Source: Lentisphaeria bacterium
GTDB lineage: Bacteria > Verrucomicrobiota > Lentisphaeria > Victivallales > Victivallaceae
Assembly: GCA_017504435.1 (NCBI GenBank)
Contig: JAFVRD010000032.1
Coordinates: 1-51,610, forward strand
DNA: 51,610 nt
Direction: 5' to 3'
Part shown: positions 45,649 through 51,433 of the stretch, one piece after another
Position numbering within the stretch: position 1 is the first letter of the stretch
How the letters are laid out: every line of letters starts with the position of its first letter
Notes under the pieces: model-generated
Told to the model about the DNA's origin: nothing
The model's input: the letters and a program-made list of their open reading frames with translations, nothing else
Database searches by the model: none
Program-made: the position numbers and the translations under genes

Positions 45649-45670
45649 TTTTGCAACGCCACCTTTGATT

Positions 45671-45778
45671 TATCGCCACCCGCCATTCTAAATTGCATTT
45701 TAAGCTTAAAACTTGAGATTTTAGCTGTAAAATGAAATTCTGAAAATCGCTTCACTTTTGTTCAGAAAAACTCAGAAT
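45671..45778. repeat. 108-bp repeat, copy A
   Basis: A gapless match to 48906-49013 with 15 differences (about 86%), same orientation. It contains ATTCT/CAGAAT inverted motifs able to form two hairpins. It lies 37 bp after the stop of the DUF4838-like gene (minus strand). Confidence 0.85.
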
Positions 45779-45815: not shown

Positions 45816-48215
45816 TCACTGGAACATATCCTGTTGATCCGCAATCTCCTCTGTTTTCCGGAACTTGTTTTTGTTAATATCGCGGGCATCCAATTTTACC
45901 AGTACCAGCTGATCCTGACGGATGATTTTTTTCTCCGGATCCACAGCCATTGAAACATAAATATCAAAGAGGCGGTCCGGATCATCCGGATCAAAAAGAT
46001 GACCGACAGCATAGCTGCTGCCTCTGGAAATATGATTAAAAGCTATCATGGAGTCCGCCTCCAGTGTTATTCTGCCCAGATGATAAAATTGATATTCTCT
46101 GTATTTATCCTGCTTCATCACCCGCGTTAAATTTACCGGTCGGGGCAACCGTTTTATGATCCATTGCACCGGACGGTCGCGCCTGTATGACCGGTAATAA
46201 AACCAGTTGCCTGTTTTCGGAACAACTCCGGTATTACAAAGACCGAAAGCCGCCTCCGGATCGTGATCCAGTCCCCGCTTGTTGCGGTCAGGCATGATCC
46301 GGAACACTTTTTTACCGGCGAAATACTCCGGCAGCGGCTTGCCGCCGCGGGCGGCAGCAATATATTGCTCCAAACCGCTCATTACTCTGGCAATTTTTGC
46401 GTTGACTATTTTTTTGTAACGCCCGGGTTTTGTTTTTTTCAGCGAAGCTAATGAATTTTCCGCATCCTGCTGTACAGTATCAACTGCCCGGCTGATGATT
46501 TTTTCAAGATCTCCGAAAGCAGCCTGTTGTGCCGGAGTCATATATTGCCATGCGGCAATGGTGGTTTCATCCAAACTGAACCGCGCCCGGCGCAAAGCAA
46601 GCAAACGCAGGCTGGATTTTCCGACGGAATGTTCCATTTTATCAAAAAGTTTCTGCCAGCGAAGCAAATTTTCTGCAGTGGCATATTTTACTGACAGAAT
46701 ACTTGGATTCCAACGCAGATCATTCCGATGATTGATTTCAAGTTGTTCCAATTCCGCCAGATAAGCTCGCATATCAGATGCCGCCTCACCGTAACAATGG
46801 TCAGTGAACTCCCGGATGATCGTCTGCACATCGGCATTGATGTCCCGACAGAGCACACTCAACATATAAACTCGCAGATCATTGAAGCCGAAATTATCGT
46901 ACGGACCTGAACCAAATTGACAATACGCCATCCATACTTTATTGCGGTGAGCCAGACGGAAGTTATCGGCGATGCGGTTGATATTGGCAAGCAACGGATA
47001 ACCGATGATCGGTCGGGGATATGGTGTCGGATACGCATACCAGTGCATTTTAGAACTAATGGCTGCCCAGGCGGCAAAATTCCGCTCTGCAACTGCATTG
47101 ACCGGATGATTGATCGGTTTGGTAAAATCCACCCCCAGCGGAGCGTAACTCGGCAACAGATTACCGGGCAGTCCGGTCAGCAATTTAGAAGGCATAAGCG
47201 TTTGATTTTTGCGGTATGCGAGAAAACAGAAAAGCAAATCCGGATGAGTTTTTTCAAATCGTCCGCTCAAATCATAGAGAAAATCATAATATGCCCCGGC
47301 AGGGTGATCATGTTTTTTCATCGCTTCAATACAATTTATGCAATAGCAGAATGCTCCATTGTTGTCATCCTGACCGACACCAATGATTTTCATGCCTCCA
47401 CGATAATTTTCGGCAGCAAGCATGATCCTGATATTTTTTTCAAACTCATCACGGAGTCCGGCATTGGTATAACACAACTGCAAGGTCGTTACCCGCTGCC
47501 CTTTGCTGTTCATGGCAAAATATTCCGGATTGGTTTGGAAATACGCTTTATCCTTAAAGTATTTCAGCGGACCGCTGATATTGCCGACCTTACCGCCAAA
47601 GGGAATCAAACCGCTGGGAATGATACGCTGTCCGGCGTGCGTTCCGGAAATGCCGATACTGTCAGCAGTCTGGTCACGCAAAAAATTACGGCGGGCAAAT
47701 TTTTCAGCCGCTGGAGAATGGTAATCGCCGTTGACCGTCATATAAGCTATCGACGGCACAACGGAATGACTGAATCCAGCCGGCAGAGAGAGTGTTTTCT
47801 GTTTGGGGCTCCGGTTGACTCCGTAAAATGTGAACCACCGGCACCCGAAAGCATCCCGCAGCAAGTCATAAATAGCATTGACATTGCCGCATTCGCCCTG
47901 TCCGCAGATATAGAGGTCGCGGGCTTCAATTCTGATCCGCCGTTCATTCTCCAAGAGTGGAGCTGCATCCGAAGGAGCTTTTTTCCCGATCCATATCGTA
48001 TGTATTTTATTGCTGTTTGCTTGGAAATCAGCACCTGATATCAGCTTCAAAAAGGTGTGAAGATCGGCAACTGCCGCTTTTTCTTCTTTATTTGGCGTGC
48101 CGTGAAAAACAATTTTATAATCAGTTTTGCTATTATCGGCAAGAATTACTCTATCTGCAGCCTCCGAACAAACAGCTGCTGTAATTAAAAATAAAACAAC
48201 AATAAATCTTTTCAT
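45816..48215 (-). CDS. Secreted DUF4838-like protein (putative glycosidase)
   Basis: The protein has 799 residues with a signal peptide (MKRFIVVLFLITAAVCSEAA). Residues about 30-130 resemble the GH20-type N-terminal domain (DLHTFLKLISGADFQANSNK, then HTIWIGKKAPSD). The central part matches the DUF4838 pattern: FGCRWFTFYGVN near 122, and IIGVGQDDNNGAFCYCINCI near 275, in which a Cys-rich loop follows conserved Asp residues. A helical domain and a C-terminal sandwich domain follow. DUF4838 proteins are common in glycan-degrading Bacteroidota and Lentisphaerota, but their activity is not well defined. The ATG overlaps the stop of the four-helix-bundle gene as ATGA, so the two are translationally coupled. 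Confidence 0.8.
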   Translation of the reverse strand: MKRFIVVLFLITAAVCSEAADRVILADNSKTDYKIVFHGTPNKEEKAAVADLHTFLKLISGADFQANSNKIHTIWIGKKAPSDAAPLLENERRIRIEARDLYICGQGECGNVNAIYDLLRDAFGCRWFTFYGVNRSPKQKTLSLPAGFSHSVVPSIAYMTVNGDYHSPAAEKFARRNFLRDQTADSIGISGTHAGQRIIPSGLIPFGGKVGNISGPLKYFKDKAYFQTNPEYFAMNSKGQRVTTLQLCYTNAGLRDEFEKNIRIMLAAENYRGGMKIIGVGQDDNNGAFCYCINCIEAMKKHDHPAGAYYDFLYDLSGRFEKTHPDLLFCFLAYRKNQTLMPSKLLTGLPGNLLPSYAPLGVDFTKPINHPVNAVAERNFAAWAAISSKMHWYAYPTPYPRPIIGYPLLANINRIADNFRLAHRNKVWMAYCQFGSGPYDNFGFNDLRVYMLSVLCRDINADVQTIIREFTDHCYGEAASDMRAYLAELEQLEINHRNDLRWNPSILSVKYATAENLLRWQKLFDKMEHSVGKSSLRLLALRRARFSLDETTIAAWQYMTPAQQAAFGDLEKIISRAVDTVQQDAENSLASLKKTKPGRYKKIVNAKIARVMSGLEQYIAAARGGKPLPEYFAGKKVFRIMPDRNKRGLDHDPEAAFGLCNTGVVPKTGNWFYYRSYRRDRPVQWIIKRLPRPVNLTRVMKQDKYREYQFYHLGRITLEADSMIAFNHISRGSSYAVGHLFDPDDPDRLFDIYVSMAVDPEKKIIRQDQLVLVKLDARDINKNKFRKTEEIADQQDMFQ

Positions 48216-48565
48216 TTTTCATCACTTTTTGCCGTATTGATGGATTTTATCAGCATCACCCGGATTTGAGAACAACTGTTATTCAATTCCTGATATTTTG
48301 CTTCATCAATATAATTTGTTTTCAACAGCAGTTCAAGCCAGTAACTTGTTTCGTTGGCTTCTTTGAGAGCGATTTGCAGTTTTGCGATAAAGTCAGGCTT
48401 GCGGTGAGCATATTGGGCTTCATGGATATTGGCTCCGATACTGGTGCCGGCTCTGCCGATTTGATTGGAAACGATCGTTTCGCGCTGTTTTTTTAAGAAT
48501 TTTGCAAAGTTCAGTATTTGTACTGCAAAGTCCACAGATAATGTGCGTAACTTGCTTTCAGCCAT
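48212..48565 (-). CDS. Four-helix-bundle protein (S23/IVP and Avd-like family)
   Basis: The protein has 117 residues, the family length. Conserved blocks are IVSNQIGRAGTSIGANIHEA near residue 34 and ALKEANETSYWLELLLKTNY near 67, typical of the family first found in 23S rRNA intervening sequences and related to the accessory Avd protein of diversity-generating retroelements. These are small basic nucleic-acid-binding pentamers in known cases. AAGGAG precedes the ATG. No reverse transcriptase or 23S rRNA gene is in the window, so this is an orphan member. It lies just downstream of a hairpin array and overlaps the DUF4838-like gene by 4 bp. Confidence 0.93.
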   Translation of the reverse strand: MAESKLRTLSVDFAVQILNFAKFLKKQRETIVSNQIGRAGTSIGANIHEAQYAHRKPDFIAKLQIALKEANETSYWLELLLKTNYIDEAKYQELNNSCSQIRVMLIKSINTAKSDEK

Positions 48566-48616
48566 AAGATTATCTCCTTTCGGAGTTTAATATAACACTG
48601 CATCAGAAAAAATCAA

Positions 48617-48894
48617 GGCGGCAACGCCGCCGTGTAAGCACCGCAGGTGCGCTTTTAATCAGAAACACATCCACCCGCCGACAGGCGGCAACTTCACGGG
48701 CAGCGCAAGCTGACCTCTTCACAAGTGAAATGGAGCGATAGCGGAATGAAACGACTTCACAAGCAAGGCTTCTGGAGTTTGGTGAAGATGTGAAGAAAAC
48801 CTTCGGTTTTGAGTGAAGAGCGGCTGTCGCCGCGTGAAGAGAAGCCTTGCGGCTTCGTTCGCCATTTTCATTTTTCTTTAAAATGAAAATGGCG
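48617..48894. repeat. Array of about nine short hairpins
   Basis: Successive stem-loops in under 300 bp: GGCGGC/GCCGCC (48617-48631), GCACC/GGTGC, CCGCC/GGCGG, CAGC/GCTG, TTCAC/GTGAA, AAAACC/GGTTTT with TTC loop, GCGGC/GCCGC, GAAGCC/GGCTTC, and CGCCATTTTCATTTT with its complement (48860-48894). Many are separated by CTTCAC or GTGAAG. An apparent ORF across it (48603-48914, minus) has a repetitive, unnatural composition. The 48566-49053 gap contains only this array, the terminator-like hairpin and repeat copy B. Confidence 0.8.
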
Positions 48895-48906
48895 GCTTGT
48901 TTTTTT
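48860..48906 (+). terminator. Terminator-like hairpin at the end of the array
   Basis: A 15-bp perfect stem (48860-48874 with 48880-48894, loop TCTTT) is followed within 5 bases by seven T on the plus strand. It would end a plus-strand transcript running through the hairpin array. Confidence 0.55.
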
Positions 48907-49013
48907 ATCACCACCCACCATTCTGAACCGCTTTTTGAGCTTAAAAACTCAGAATTTCGCTGTGAAATGAAATTCTGAAAATCACTTCACTTTTATTCAG
49001 AAAAACTCAGAAT
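48906..49013. repeat. 108-bp repeat, copy B
   Basis: The second copy of the repeat at 45671-45778, directly oriented. Internal ATTCTGA and TCAGAAT motifs form two potential hairpins. It lies 40 bp after the stop of the Mrr-like nuclease gene, the same relative position as copy A to its gene. Confidence 0.85.
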
Positions 49014-49053
49014 GGCAAATCGCCATTCCTCGTTCTCTGAATAATATATCATT

Positions 49054-50052
49054 TCAAAATGAAAATGCAAGCCGCTTAAAAACCTTTCGCTTTATTTTCC
49101 TGTTCAGGGAAGCTGATCGGATATCAAGTCCAGCTGCAATAAGCATTTTACAGAAGTCCCGTCCGTTTATAAGCACAATTCCATTTTCCTGGGCTTTGAG
49201 GACTGCAGACTCAGTGAATTCCTCTGCGAAAGATACCACCCAATTGGTGTATGACCAATTGGTGTCAGCATTGTCACTCTTTTTCCGGTTTTCTGCATAA
49301 TCAGTAATCTGCTGAACAGCCCAATCCCCCGTTTGCCCCCAATGCTTTTTTGCCTGAACAGAAATTGTAAGATGCAGCAAAGGAAAAACTGCTTCAACGT
49401 CGCAATCTCCGATTTTTTCAGAGCTGTTTTTCGGCAATATCTTTGCTTTTGCACCTTGTTTTGCAAAATAAGAAAGAAGCTGTTGTTCAAAGTGGTCCGG
49501 AGAACCATTGGCATCAAGCAATTCACGGCATTTGTCCGCTAACTCTGACGGAAGAGAGAAAGGTTTTTTATCATTGAAGCGTTTTATAGCCGTATTTACG
49601 CTTTCCGCAAGATCTAAGATGTCGGCGGTCGTTTGAAAGCACTTCATCCGCGACAAAAGCGAGGTGGAGGCATACGCCTCACGAGGTCCACAAAAGTCAA
49701 TGATTTTTTCAACCTTCCATTCAAAGCCGATATCCTTGATCTCACGCAAATCAGACACTTTGACTTCCCCGATGAGTTTGCATACAGAAAAACCTCCATC
49801 ACGGGGAACCACAACAATATCATCGGCTTTCATTTCGCAAGTGAAATACCACAGACTCCAACGAGATCTCCAAATTGAACCGCCATAAATATTGTGATAG
49901 ATTTCATCAAATTCTTTACCTGCGTTTTTGGCAATTGCATCACGCATCTATTTATTATTTGCACAATCAGAAAAGCCAATGGTAAGTCTGTTCTCCTTTT
50001 CAAAATGTTCAAATCCGCCTTGATATTTGCAACGATGAATCCAGTACCTCAT
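49054..50052 (-). pseudogene. Mrr-like restriction endonuclease gene interrupted by an in-frame TAG
   Basis: Read from ATG 50052, which has AGGAG at good spacing, the frame encodes MRYWIHRCKYQGGFEHFEKE and on to ANNK (34 residues), then TAG at 49948-49950, then ATG and 297 more residues in the same frame. The N-terminal part before the stop looks like the natural start of the protein, since the fold continues (WYFTCEMKADDIVVVPRDGG, then FSVCKLIGEV). The C-terminal half has an Mrr-type PD-(D/E)xK core: DCDVEA near the catalytic Asp and ISVQAKKHWGQTGDWAVQQI with the QxK pair. It would cleave DNA, perhaps modified DNA. Options are a nonsense mutation, readthrough, or restart at the ATG right after TAG. 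It follows the J-domain gene by 14 bp. Confidence 0.75.
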
Positions 50053-50066
50053 CCCACATCTCCTTC

Positions 50067-51410
50067 TTAAATTTTCTTGTTCGTAATATTTTCTGCCTCT
50101 GCTTTACGAAACAAAGGCTCTGTGTTAAACTCCACGATATGCCGCGAGAGAACATTTGTCAAATCATCGCCACAGATATACCCCGGCTCAACTTTTCGCA
50201 GTTCTCCGGCAAGGTCATCCGGCAGAGAAAAATCCACCCTGCACGGAGACTTTAATGCCCCAAGAGCCGTGATGACACATTTTTCAGCGATTTGCCCAGC
50301 GGTGGCATTGGGGTTTACCCGTAACGGAAGCTCTTTTGTGTGAACGCCATATTCCAGCAGGATATTAAATAAAACCTTTTTGCCTTCCACACGGGAAACA
50401 GTAATTTTTACTGCTTTGTGCCGTTTATCAGCGGCAAGGAGCGATTGCACCTGTTGACGCTTTTCTGCTACTAACTGCTTTATCCCCAGATGTTCATTTT
50501 CAGAACGCTTCCGCAAAAGTTCCTTTGCCAGCTCTCTCTTTGAGTCTGGCCATTTTCGGAATTCCCACGCAATAGAACGCTTTGCCCGTTTGAGTGCGGC
50601 ACGGACAGGCTTAAATTCCTGTTCCACGGCTTTAGTCATTGCGAGAATGTCATCGCAACTCAAAGAGCCTTGCTGGGCATCGGGGTTTACAACCGGGCGT
50701 TTCATCAGATCCTGCAGTTTGCGGACACTTCCGATTTCGTAAGCATTTTGAATTTCCAGCCAAAGCGTCTCATCGTAATAGCCGGTCTTGTCCGGATGGT
50801 GACGCAAGCAGAGGGTGCGATATAATTTTTTCAGTTCCTTGCTGTCAGACTCCGTAACGCCTGGTTCTTTGCGTGGCGGTGGTGTAAAAGGTTTGTCCTG
50901 CATCCGTTCAAAGGTTTCAGCAATCCGTTTTGCATTTTCCGCAGAGTCCTCACGGGAACGCAGGTATTCATTTATCCGTTCCCGAAACAGCTGTTCAAGT
51001 TCCTGCTCTGCTGCAGTCACCTTATCCCTGACCACACCCCAGAAAAACTTATTTTCATTGATACAGATCTGCTGGATGCGGTATGCCATCTCCGCTTGCG
51101 ACACTTTCTCCATACGGCAAAGGCGGTCGAACATCGTTATGTTTTCCTTGTACCGAGTGTACTCGTACCGCAAAAAAGAGGTGTCTGCCAAAGTTTCCCC
51201 AGCGAAAGACTCAAGCCACTGCTGATACGCAGGCTCATCATTTCGCCGGAACTCGGCAAGAAGCATTTGTGCCTTTGCAAAGGATTTTTTCTTTGAAAGG
51301 TACTTTTTCCACAATAACGCTTTCTGGGCTTCCGAATCGGCAACAGCAGGAAGGTGCGGATTTTTCACGGCATCCGTAAAATCATATTCTGCACGCAAGT
51401 CTTCACTCAT
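50067..51410 (-). CDS. J-domain protein with long coiled N-terminus
   Basis: The protein has 447 residues from ATG 51410, chosen because GGAGA lies 7 bases upstream; ATG 51431 is an alternative. Residues 1-185 are helical and charged with coiled-coil character. Residues about 188-236 form a J-domain with the HPD tripeptide at 205-207 (LYRTLCLRHHPDKTGYYDET), which should stimulate an Hsp70 ATPase. There is no Gly/Phe or zinc-finger region, so it is not DnaJ itself. The C-terminal part (residues 260-447) has a helical charged segment and a beta-rich end of unknown family. It lies between a metallophosphoesterase and an Mrr-like nuclease on the same strand. Confidence 0.8.
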   Translation of the reverse strand: MSEDLRAEYDFTDAVKNPHLPAVADSEAQKALLWKKYLSKKKSFAKAQMLLAEFRRNDEPAYQQWLESFAGETLADTSFLRYEYTRYKENITMFDRLCRMEKVSQAEMAYRIQQICINENKFFWGVVRDKVTAAEQELEQLFRERINEYLRSREDSAENAKRIAETFERMQDKPFTPPPRKEPGVTESDSKELKKLYRTLCLRHHPDKTGYYDETLWLEIQNAYEIGSVRKLQDLMKRPVVNPDAQQGSLSCDDILAMTKAVEQEFKPVRAALKRAKRSIAWEFRKWPDSKRELAKELLRKRSENEHLGIKQLVAEKRQQVQSLLAADKRHKAVKITVSRVEGKKVLFNILLEYGVHTKELPLRVNPNATAGQIAEKCVITALGALKSPCRVDFSLPDDLAGELRKVEPGYICGDDLTNVLSRHIVEFNTEPLFRKAEAENITNKKI

Positions 51411-51433
51411 CGTTCTGTCTCCGTGCTTCATTG

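Follow-up and report, generated by a model that had tools for sequence, protein, structure and literature searches.

What does a dense array of small hairpins do beside a gene for an S23 protein? The question is raised by the window, the whole 51,610-nt stretch analysed here (contig JAFVRD010000032.1 of the Lentisphaeria bacterium assembly GCA_017504435.1, positions 1 to 51,610). Proteins of the S23 family were recognised in rRNA intervening sequences decades ago and, to our knowledge, no function has been agreed for them. In the original prediction, the array could either serve the protein as RNA partner or as DNA target, or be a mobile repeat travelling with it. Our preferred reading, to which we assign a probability of roughly 0.6, is that the array is the front end of a mobile cassette of the S23 family that uses tRNA ends, with S23 recognising the structure formed by a short punctuator, p, and its reverse complement, p′. 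This reading provides S23 with a testable candidate partner in the form of a short repeat that, along with its complement, varies in step with the protein. A further implication is that common animal-gut bacteria contain a family of small mobile elements, which use tRNA ends, carry genes for secreted proteins and stack in tandem.

The array had been described as about nine stem-loops punctuated by CTTCAC and GTGAAG, and it is indeed found as such at approximately 48617-48894. Within it, CTTCAC occurs three times (48692, 48717 and 48755) and GTGAAG four times (48782, 48790, 48813 and 48834), and its terminus is an AT-rich 15-bp hairpin (48860-48874/48880-48894) with 100% complementary arms, adjoining seven T. 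Both strands of the region outfold 100 out of 100 dinucleotide shuffles (z of about -3.2 and -3.3). A plus-strand transcript ending near 48906 had been expected; instead, the unit is functionally read on the minus strand, on which the array lies immediately upstream of S23 and the end hairpin is the 5′ end of the unit. The hairpin and its seven T are as described, but the structure that had been called terminator-like is homologous to a hairpin that abuts tRNA 3′ ends elsewhere. In relatives, this left-end hairpin starts at the CCA end of the tRNA, with a 3′ arm complementary to the 3′ end of that tRNA.

Read along the minus strand, the left-end hairpin (CGCCATTTTCATTTT/AAAATGAAAATGGCG, 48860..48894, 15 of 15 positions complementary, with counterparts in relatives) is followed by hairpin A (GAAGCC-GCAA-GGCTTC, 48841..48856) and by the first half of the array (48782..48839), which contains four CTTCAC punctuators and the hairpins GCGGCGACAGCCGC and AAAACCGAAGGTTTT. 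The A′ segment (48763..48773) marks the flip of punctuator orientation and is an 11-nt perfect complement to hairpin A, the 3′ arm of which can also pair with it. The second half (48617..48760) contains three GTGAAG punctuators and the hairpins GGTCAGC..GCTGCCC, CCGCCTGTCGGCGG, GCACCTGCGGTGC and GGCGGCGTTGCCGCC. No Rfam model matched the array at its gathering score, with sub-threshold matches only, and rRNA families gave no match in window positions 48000-49200, where the array copy sits between protein genes.

Downstream from the array on the same strand, a sigma-70-like promoter (TTGATT-16-TATATT, 48589..48616), comparable to sites before S23 in relatives, precedes a gene for a protein of 117 aa (48212..48565). 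The assignment of this gene to the S23-like four-helix-bundle proteins of the 23S rRNA intervening-sequence type is confirmed by PF05635 (1.7e-27; 96.2 bits for a curated cut-off of 33.8) and TIGR02436 (3.9e-30; 104.3 bits for a cut-off of 24). The closest solved structure, and the sole solved relative found, is 2rld, an entry with five chains; according to a reference listed in PMC10053308, five four-helix bundles make up the assembly of a related member of the family. The S23 stop codon is overlapped (ATGA) by the start codon of a cargo gene (45816..48215, minus strand), the 799-aa product of which has an apparent signal peptide and a DUF4838 domain. About 37 nts past the cargo stop lies a right-end segment (RE; 45669..45778, minus strand) with 84-86% identity over about 110 nts to other REs. 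The RE of a preceding unit, followed by a CCGCCA core, is found at 48889..49013 on the minus strand (90% identity over 126 nts to the inter-unit RE of locus L082). Because an RE is present at both 49013-48889 and 45778-45669, the window holds a complete unit of about 3.2 kb (48895 to 45669), in the order end hairpin, array, promoter, S23, overlapping secreted-protein gene and RE. The unit has no gene for an enzyme that could cut or join DNA, which counts against the preferred reading. A PADLOC search with S23 gave no defence match. For the gene upstream of the unit, PADLOC gave weak matches only, the better one being Mrr-like. This Mrr-like nuclease gene (49054-49947, minus strand) and a DnaJ-domain gene (50067-51425, minus strand) adjoin the unit and hardly occur in 33 further genomes of the genus; the Mrr-like gene may be cargo of the preceding unit.

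The proposal that similar arrays accompany S23-like genes in other genomes was followed up in the 80 top-ranking S23 loci among GTDB genomes, which belong to Lentisphaerota and Bacillota of the gut, nearly all of the data being metagenome-assembled genomes. An array was found immediately upstream of S23 in 64 of the 73 loci with enough upstream sequence, compared with 14 of 600 control windows (some of them arrays themselves), and a tRNA or tmRNA 3′ end on the same strand was found within 600 nts in 58 out of 69 loci, compared with 0.7% of random positions; for both counts, the loci are not phylogenetically independent, and background positions and control windows were drawn from the same loci. 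In this sense, the array does travel with an S23 subfamily across two phyla, as anticipated for a mobile repeat. The targets at these loci comprise 15 tRNA isotypes and tmRNA, and hairpin density averages 5.4 per 330 nts, where shuffles give about 1.1 and control windows 1.6. In both phyla the common order upstream of S23 is the tRNA, the end hairpin, hairpins with p, the flip, hairpins with p′, the promoter and S23. Two human-gut scaffolds deposited as phage, L271 (MT835815.1) and L272 (MT835590.1), also contain S23 and arrays, punctuated by GTGATAT and ATGAAAT; those of L271 come after tRNA-Arg and have the same anatomy as the Lentisphaerota and Bacillota units. A scan of IMG/VR gave no relatives. 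One contig labelled Clostridia (L074) carries a Lentisphaerota-type cassette with 91% S23 identity and is probably misbinned. No literature on S23-linked hairpin arrays at tRNA genes was found among the open-access papers searched; the S23-linked array units are real and widespread, and apparently undescribed in that literature.

Is the array active as RNA or as DNA? It could be an RNA element, transcribed as a tRNA trailer or as an S23 leader, excised by RNase III and bound by S23 in the manner of rRNA intervening sequences. This possibility draws on the presence of S23 genes in rRNA intervening sequences with stem-forming ends (PMC4990558), on structured RNA genes being the main targets and on the pairing of the left-end hairpin with the tRNA 3′ end. 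The hairpin carries an inverted copy of the tRNA end of at least 3 nts in 42 of 52 loci and of at least 5 nts in 16, and the weight rests on the longer copies because 3 nts represent only CCA. However, a terminator-like hairpin separates the tRNA from the array in 48 out of 62 loci, and a promoter-like site is found in the last 75 nts before S23 in 74% of 73 loci, compared with 3% of array slices. With these signals flanking it, the array is expected in neither the tRNA nor the S23 transcript. We therefore consider the RNA element unlikely, while still a serious alternative, and favour structured DNA as the probable active form.

The punctuators are the constant part of the array within a lineage. 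Hairpin stems vary freely, and from one S23 lineage to another the 6-nt p and p′, its reverse complement, switch in concert (CTTCAC/GTGAAG, GCTTCAT/ATGAAGC, GTGATG/CATCAC and ATGATG/CATCAT). A single flip separates p from p′ in 48 of 68 loci, for 5.1 expected, and most exceptions have extra copies at the edges. Lentisphaerota and Bacillota have p and p′ in opposite orders, which fits a structure and is compatible with RNA as well as with DNA. The proposed covariance analysis of array copies was carried out on ten window-type arrays: the RNAalifold consensus fold consists of p-p′ rungs with hairpins between them, and 12 pairs have changes on both sides, compared with a mean of 4.7 and a maximum of 9 in shuffles, these counts being approximate owing to gaps and slips in the alignment. 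In the C12 copy from the genome of the window, hairpin A and A′, although distant from each other, likewise change in step.

The type of p follows the S23 lineage. On an S23 tree of 117 columns, which is poorly resolved, p type changes 6 times when unclassified loci are left out and 12 times when they are included as a group, compared with a shuffled mean of 45.6. In the assemblies SIG84, SIG87 and RGIG5419, two S23 types are present and every type has its own p. Because punctuator type tracks S23 lineage, the suggestion that the array is an RNA partner or DNA target of S23, first made from the letters alone, receives indirect support and is plausible. Transfer between phyla was also considered and is unsupported, the S23 tree showing essentially no recent transfer (one change).

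Copies of the array are also dispersed in the genome of the window (61 contigs, 2.26 Mb in total). A search for CTTCAC-N6..34-CTTCAC gave 44 matches, compared with 12 for the reversed control, and these matches mark about 12 arrays: four long and window-like (C26, C1, C12 and C18), six short within pseudopilin genes and two partial. Their stem sequences differ and their punctuators are constant. The long arrays C1, C12 and C18 come after tRNA-Phe, tRNA-Ser and tRNA-Ala genes, respectively. The genome contains one intact S23, that of the window, and a 5′-truncated one at C18, while at C12 nothing but the nine initial codons of S23 is left, in fusion with a lipoprotein gene. Arrays spread through the genome without four-helix-bundle genes had been named as evidence against the association, and about 11 of the 12 arrays here indeed have no adjacent intact S23; elsewhere, the association stands in that this S23 type is rarely found without an array, and the S23-less copies consequently look non-autonomous. 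The short copies are inserted at FTLIELLV codons (L030:3023-4012 and L029:3266-4240, both on the minus strand, and L023, L026, L031 and L032); in L030 and L029 the frame stays open, with FTLIELLV flanking the insert on both sides.

Dispersed S23-less arrays, together with hairpins flanked by a short conserved motif, are reminiscent of REP/BIME repeats, which would be mobilised in trans by a transposase of the Y1 (IS200-like, RAYT) type, with S23 as a passenger. This is very unlikely, since the only Y1 match in the genome is a truncated fragment of 61 residues at C57 and most of the genus has no match, the stems are not conserved as they are in REPs, and there is a tight link between p type and the presence of S23. 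The two systems share dispersed hairpins in both orientations with a short conserved flank, whereas the array has freely varying stems, a punctuator that pairs with its complement and a genome without an intact Y1 transposase. The resemblance of S23 to Avd (PMC10053308) raised another possibility, a relative of diversity-generating retroelements in which S23 would act as Avd with a reverse transcriptase on the array RNA. This idea is barely credible and largely refuted, unless the gene is missing from the assembly: reverse transcriptase (PF00078) has no match in the same genome and is matched in 8 of 34 genomes of the genus, and an unsystematic reading noticed no template/variable repeat pair. 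Both enzymes were thus rejected as movers, being absent or fragmentary in the genome of the window.

Evidence for discrete units comes from their right ends. At L082, three units stand one behind another after tRNA-Ser; S23 is truncated in the second of them and missing from the third. They are separated by a conserved RE of about 125 nts that is full-length once and shortened once. This RE terminates in CCGCCATTTTTTTT, which resembles the tRNA-Ser 3′ end. REs like that of the window at 49013-48889 are also found in L025, L074, L077, L086, L087 and L151. In 12 of 16 GTGAAG-type loci, the cargo start lies at -1 relative to the S23 stop. The cargo varies from locus to locus, most of it being apparently secreted or membrane-bound without a Pfam match and one being SdpI-like. 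Ordinary intergenic clutter, in which terminators and promoters stack beside tRNA genes without forming any element, is a highly improbable account of these regions: several of the hairpins are terminator-like and other elements also gather behind tRNA genes, but clutter does not fit with lineage-specific p/p′ pairs coupled to S23, tandem units with a common RE and recurrence in two phyla.

Several comparisons are consistent with movement. L078 and L082 have closely similar S23 and cargo behind different tRNA-Ser genes, the sister genomes L198 and L199 have different element stubs at one tRNA-Ser site, and L204 and L205 have apparently empty T-run sites at tRNA-Ser, which are suggestive only. 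Other results count against the preferred reading. A search for paired empty and filled sites gave no clean pair, the candidate empties L200, L204 and L205 differing in tRNA or flank, and a search of relatives with the genes flanking the window unit found no clean empty site. A direct repeat of the tRNA end is present in L082, L077, L151 and a few other loci, and one of at least 11 nts lies beyond S23 in 10 of 52 loci, compared with 1 control, hence duplication of an attachment site is not general. The window unit is itself not beside a tRNA, and its downstream RE (45778-45669) has no clear CCGCCA core. A second kind of element is found behind tRNA-Ala and tRNA-Met 3′ ends in the genus (L217, L230, L232, L237, L239 and L027:946). 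Its ends, CCATCCTTCGC..GCGAAGGATG, are inverted, and it has the start of a gene for a putative GIY-YIG-type protein. A further insert (GCAAAAATGCGGGATAGCCTGAATGAAATGAAGGCAATCCC..) is nested in the loop of the left-end hairpin behind tRNA-Ser in L185, L207, L079 and L084.

Under the preferred reading, a cassette would consist of the end hairpin, array, promoter, S23, at least one cargo gene and the right end, and would insert behind tRNA or tmRNA 3′ ends or, where an earlier cassette is in place, behind the tRNA-like core of its right end, which would allow cassettes to stack. In DNA that is extruded or single-stranded, the p/p′ pairs could form the rungs, with small hairpins between them, of a ladder of junctions. 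S23, as an oligomeric four-helix protein, most likely recognises the lineage-specific p/p′ structure and may bring element and target together, with strand chemistry probably performed by host enzymes. Copies that lost S23 would survive as non-autonomous arrays.

Known systems share parts of this anatomy. Integron gene cassettes are also tandem gene units with structured and variable border sites, whereas the array units have a tRNA-end anchor, keep S23 constant and show no integrase or attI/attC core in the sequences read; the few proteins scanned near the units gave no integrase match. The position at tRNA or tmRNA 3′ ends, with a tRNA-like core repeated at some right ends, is shared with tRNA-targeted integrative elements and islands, from which the S23 unit differs in its very small size, its hairpin ladder and the absence of an integrase. 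Rickettsia palindromic elements sit inside genes, as do the in-frame array copies of the pseudopilin genes, but their anatomy is different and the array is tied to S23 and tRNA ends. The closest comparison is with 23S rRNA intervening sequences, which contain S23 genes, have stem-forming ends and have long been suspected of mobility (PMC4990558); in Coxiella burnetii, GACAGAT heptamers lie just upstream of the S23p ORF (PMC4990558). The array units share with them the protein family, stem-forming ends, short repeats upstream of S23 and sites at structured RNA genes. In contrast, they lie outside 23S rRNA, behind tRNA or tmRNA ends or earlier cassettes, and have hairpins between paired punctuators, their own promoter, cargo and tandem stacking. 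The S23 array unit is hence related to rRNA intervening sequences and not a member of them.

The wider S23 family was sampled with 30 distant Verrucomicrobiota loci and four plasmid loci (Bacillota, Spirochaetota, Bacteroidota and Cyanobacteriota). Neither a tRNA nor an evident hairpin array accompanies S23 in the 30 Verrucomicrobiota loci. The upstream and downstream flanks of the 34 distant S23 genes share a mean of 20 inverted 7-letter words, compared with 6.7 in the control, and 29 of 34 loci share at least 10, compared with 6 of 34 control loci (clearest in L273, L274 and L270). Together with the Coxiella heptamers, these inverted arrays suggest a common rule that joins S23 to a short repeat particular to each lineage and to the complement of that repeat; the hairpin ladder would be one form of this rule. 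More tentatively, and with slightly less than even odds in our judgement, S23 proteins of many phyla may define one undescribed class of mobile elements, in which the protein would recognise a lineage-specific short repeat paired with its complement. Within it, gut Lentisphaerota and Bacillota would have a tRNA-anchored hairpin-ladder gene-cassette system, and rRNA intervening sequences would be the best-known remnants. In L154-L183, L269, L270, L273 and L274, inverted repeats of about 7 nts form lineage-specific arrays that bracket S23, several of them within long open frames, and in L269 S23 sits between hsdS and hsdR.
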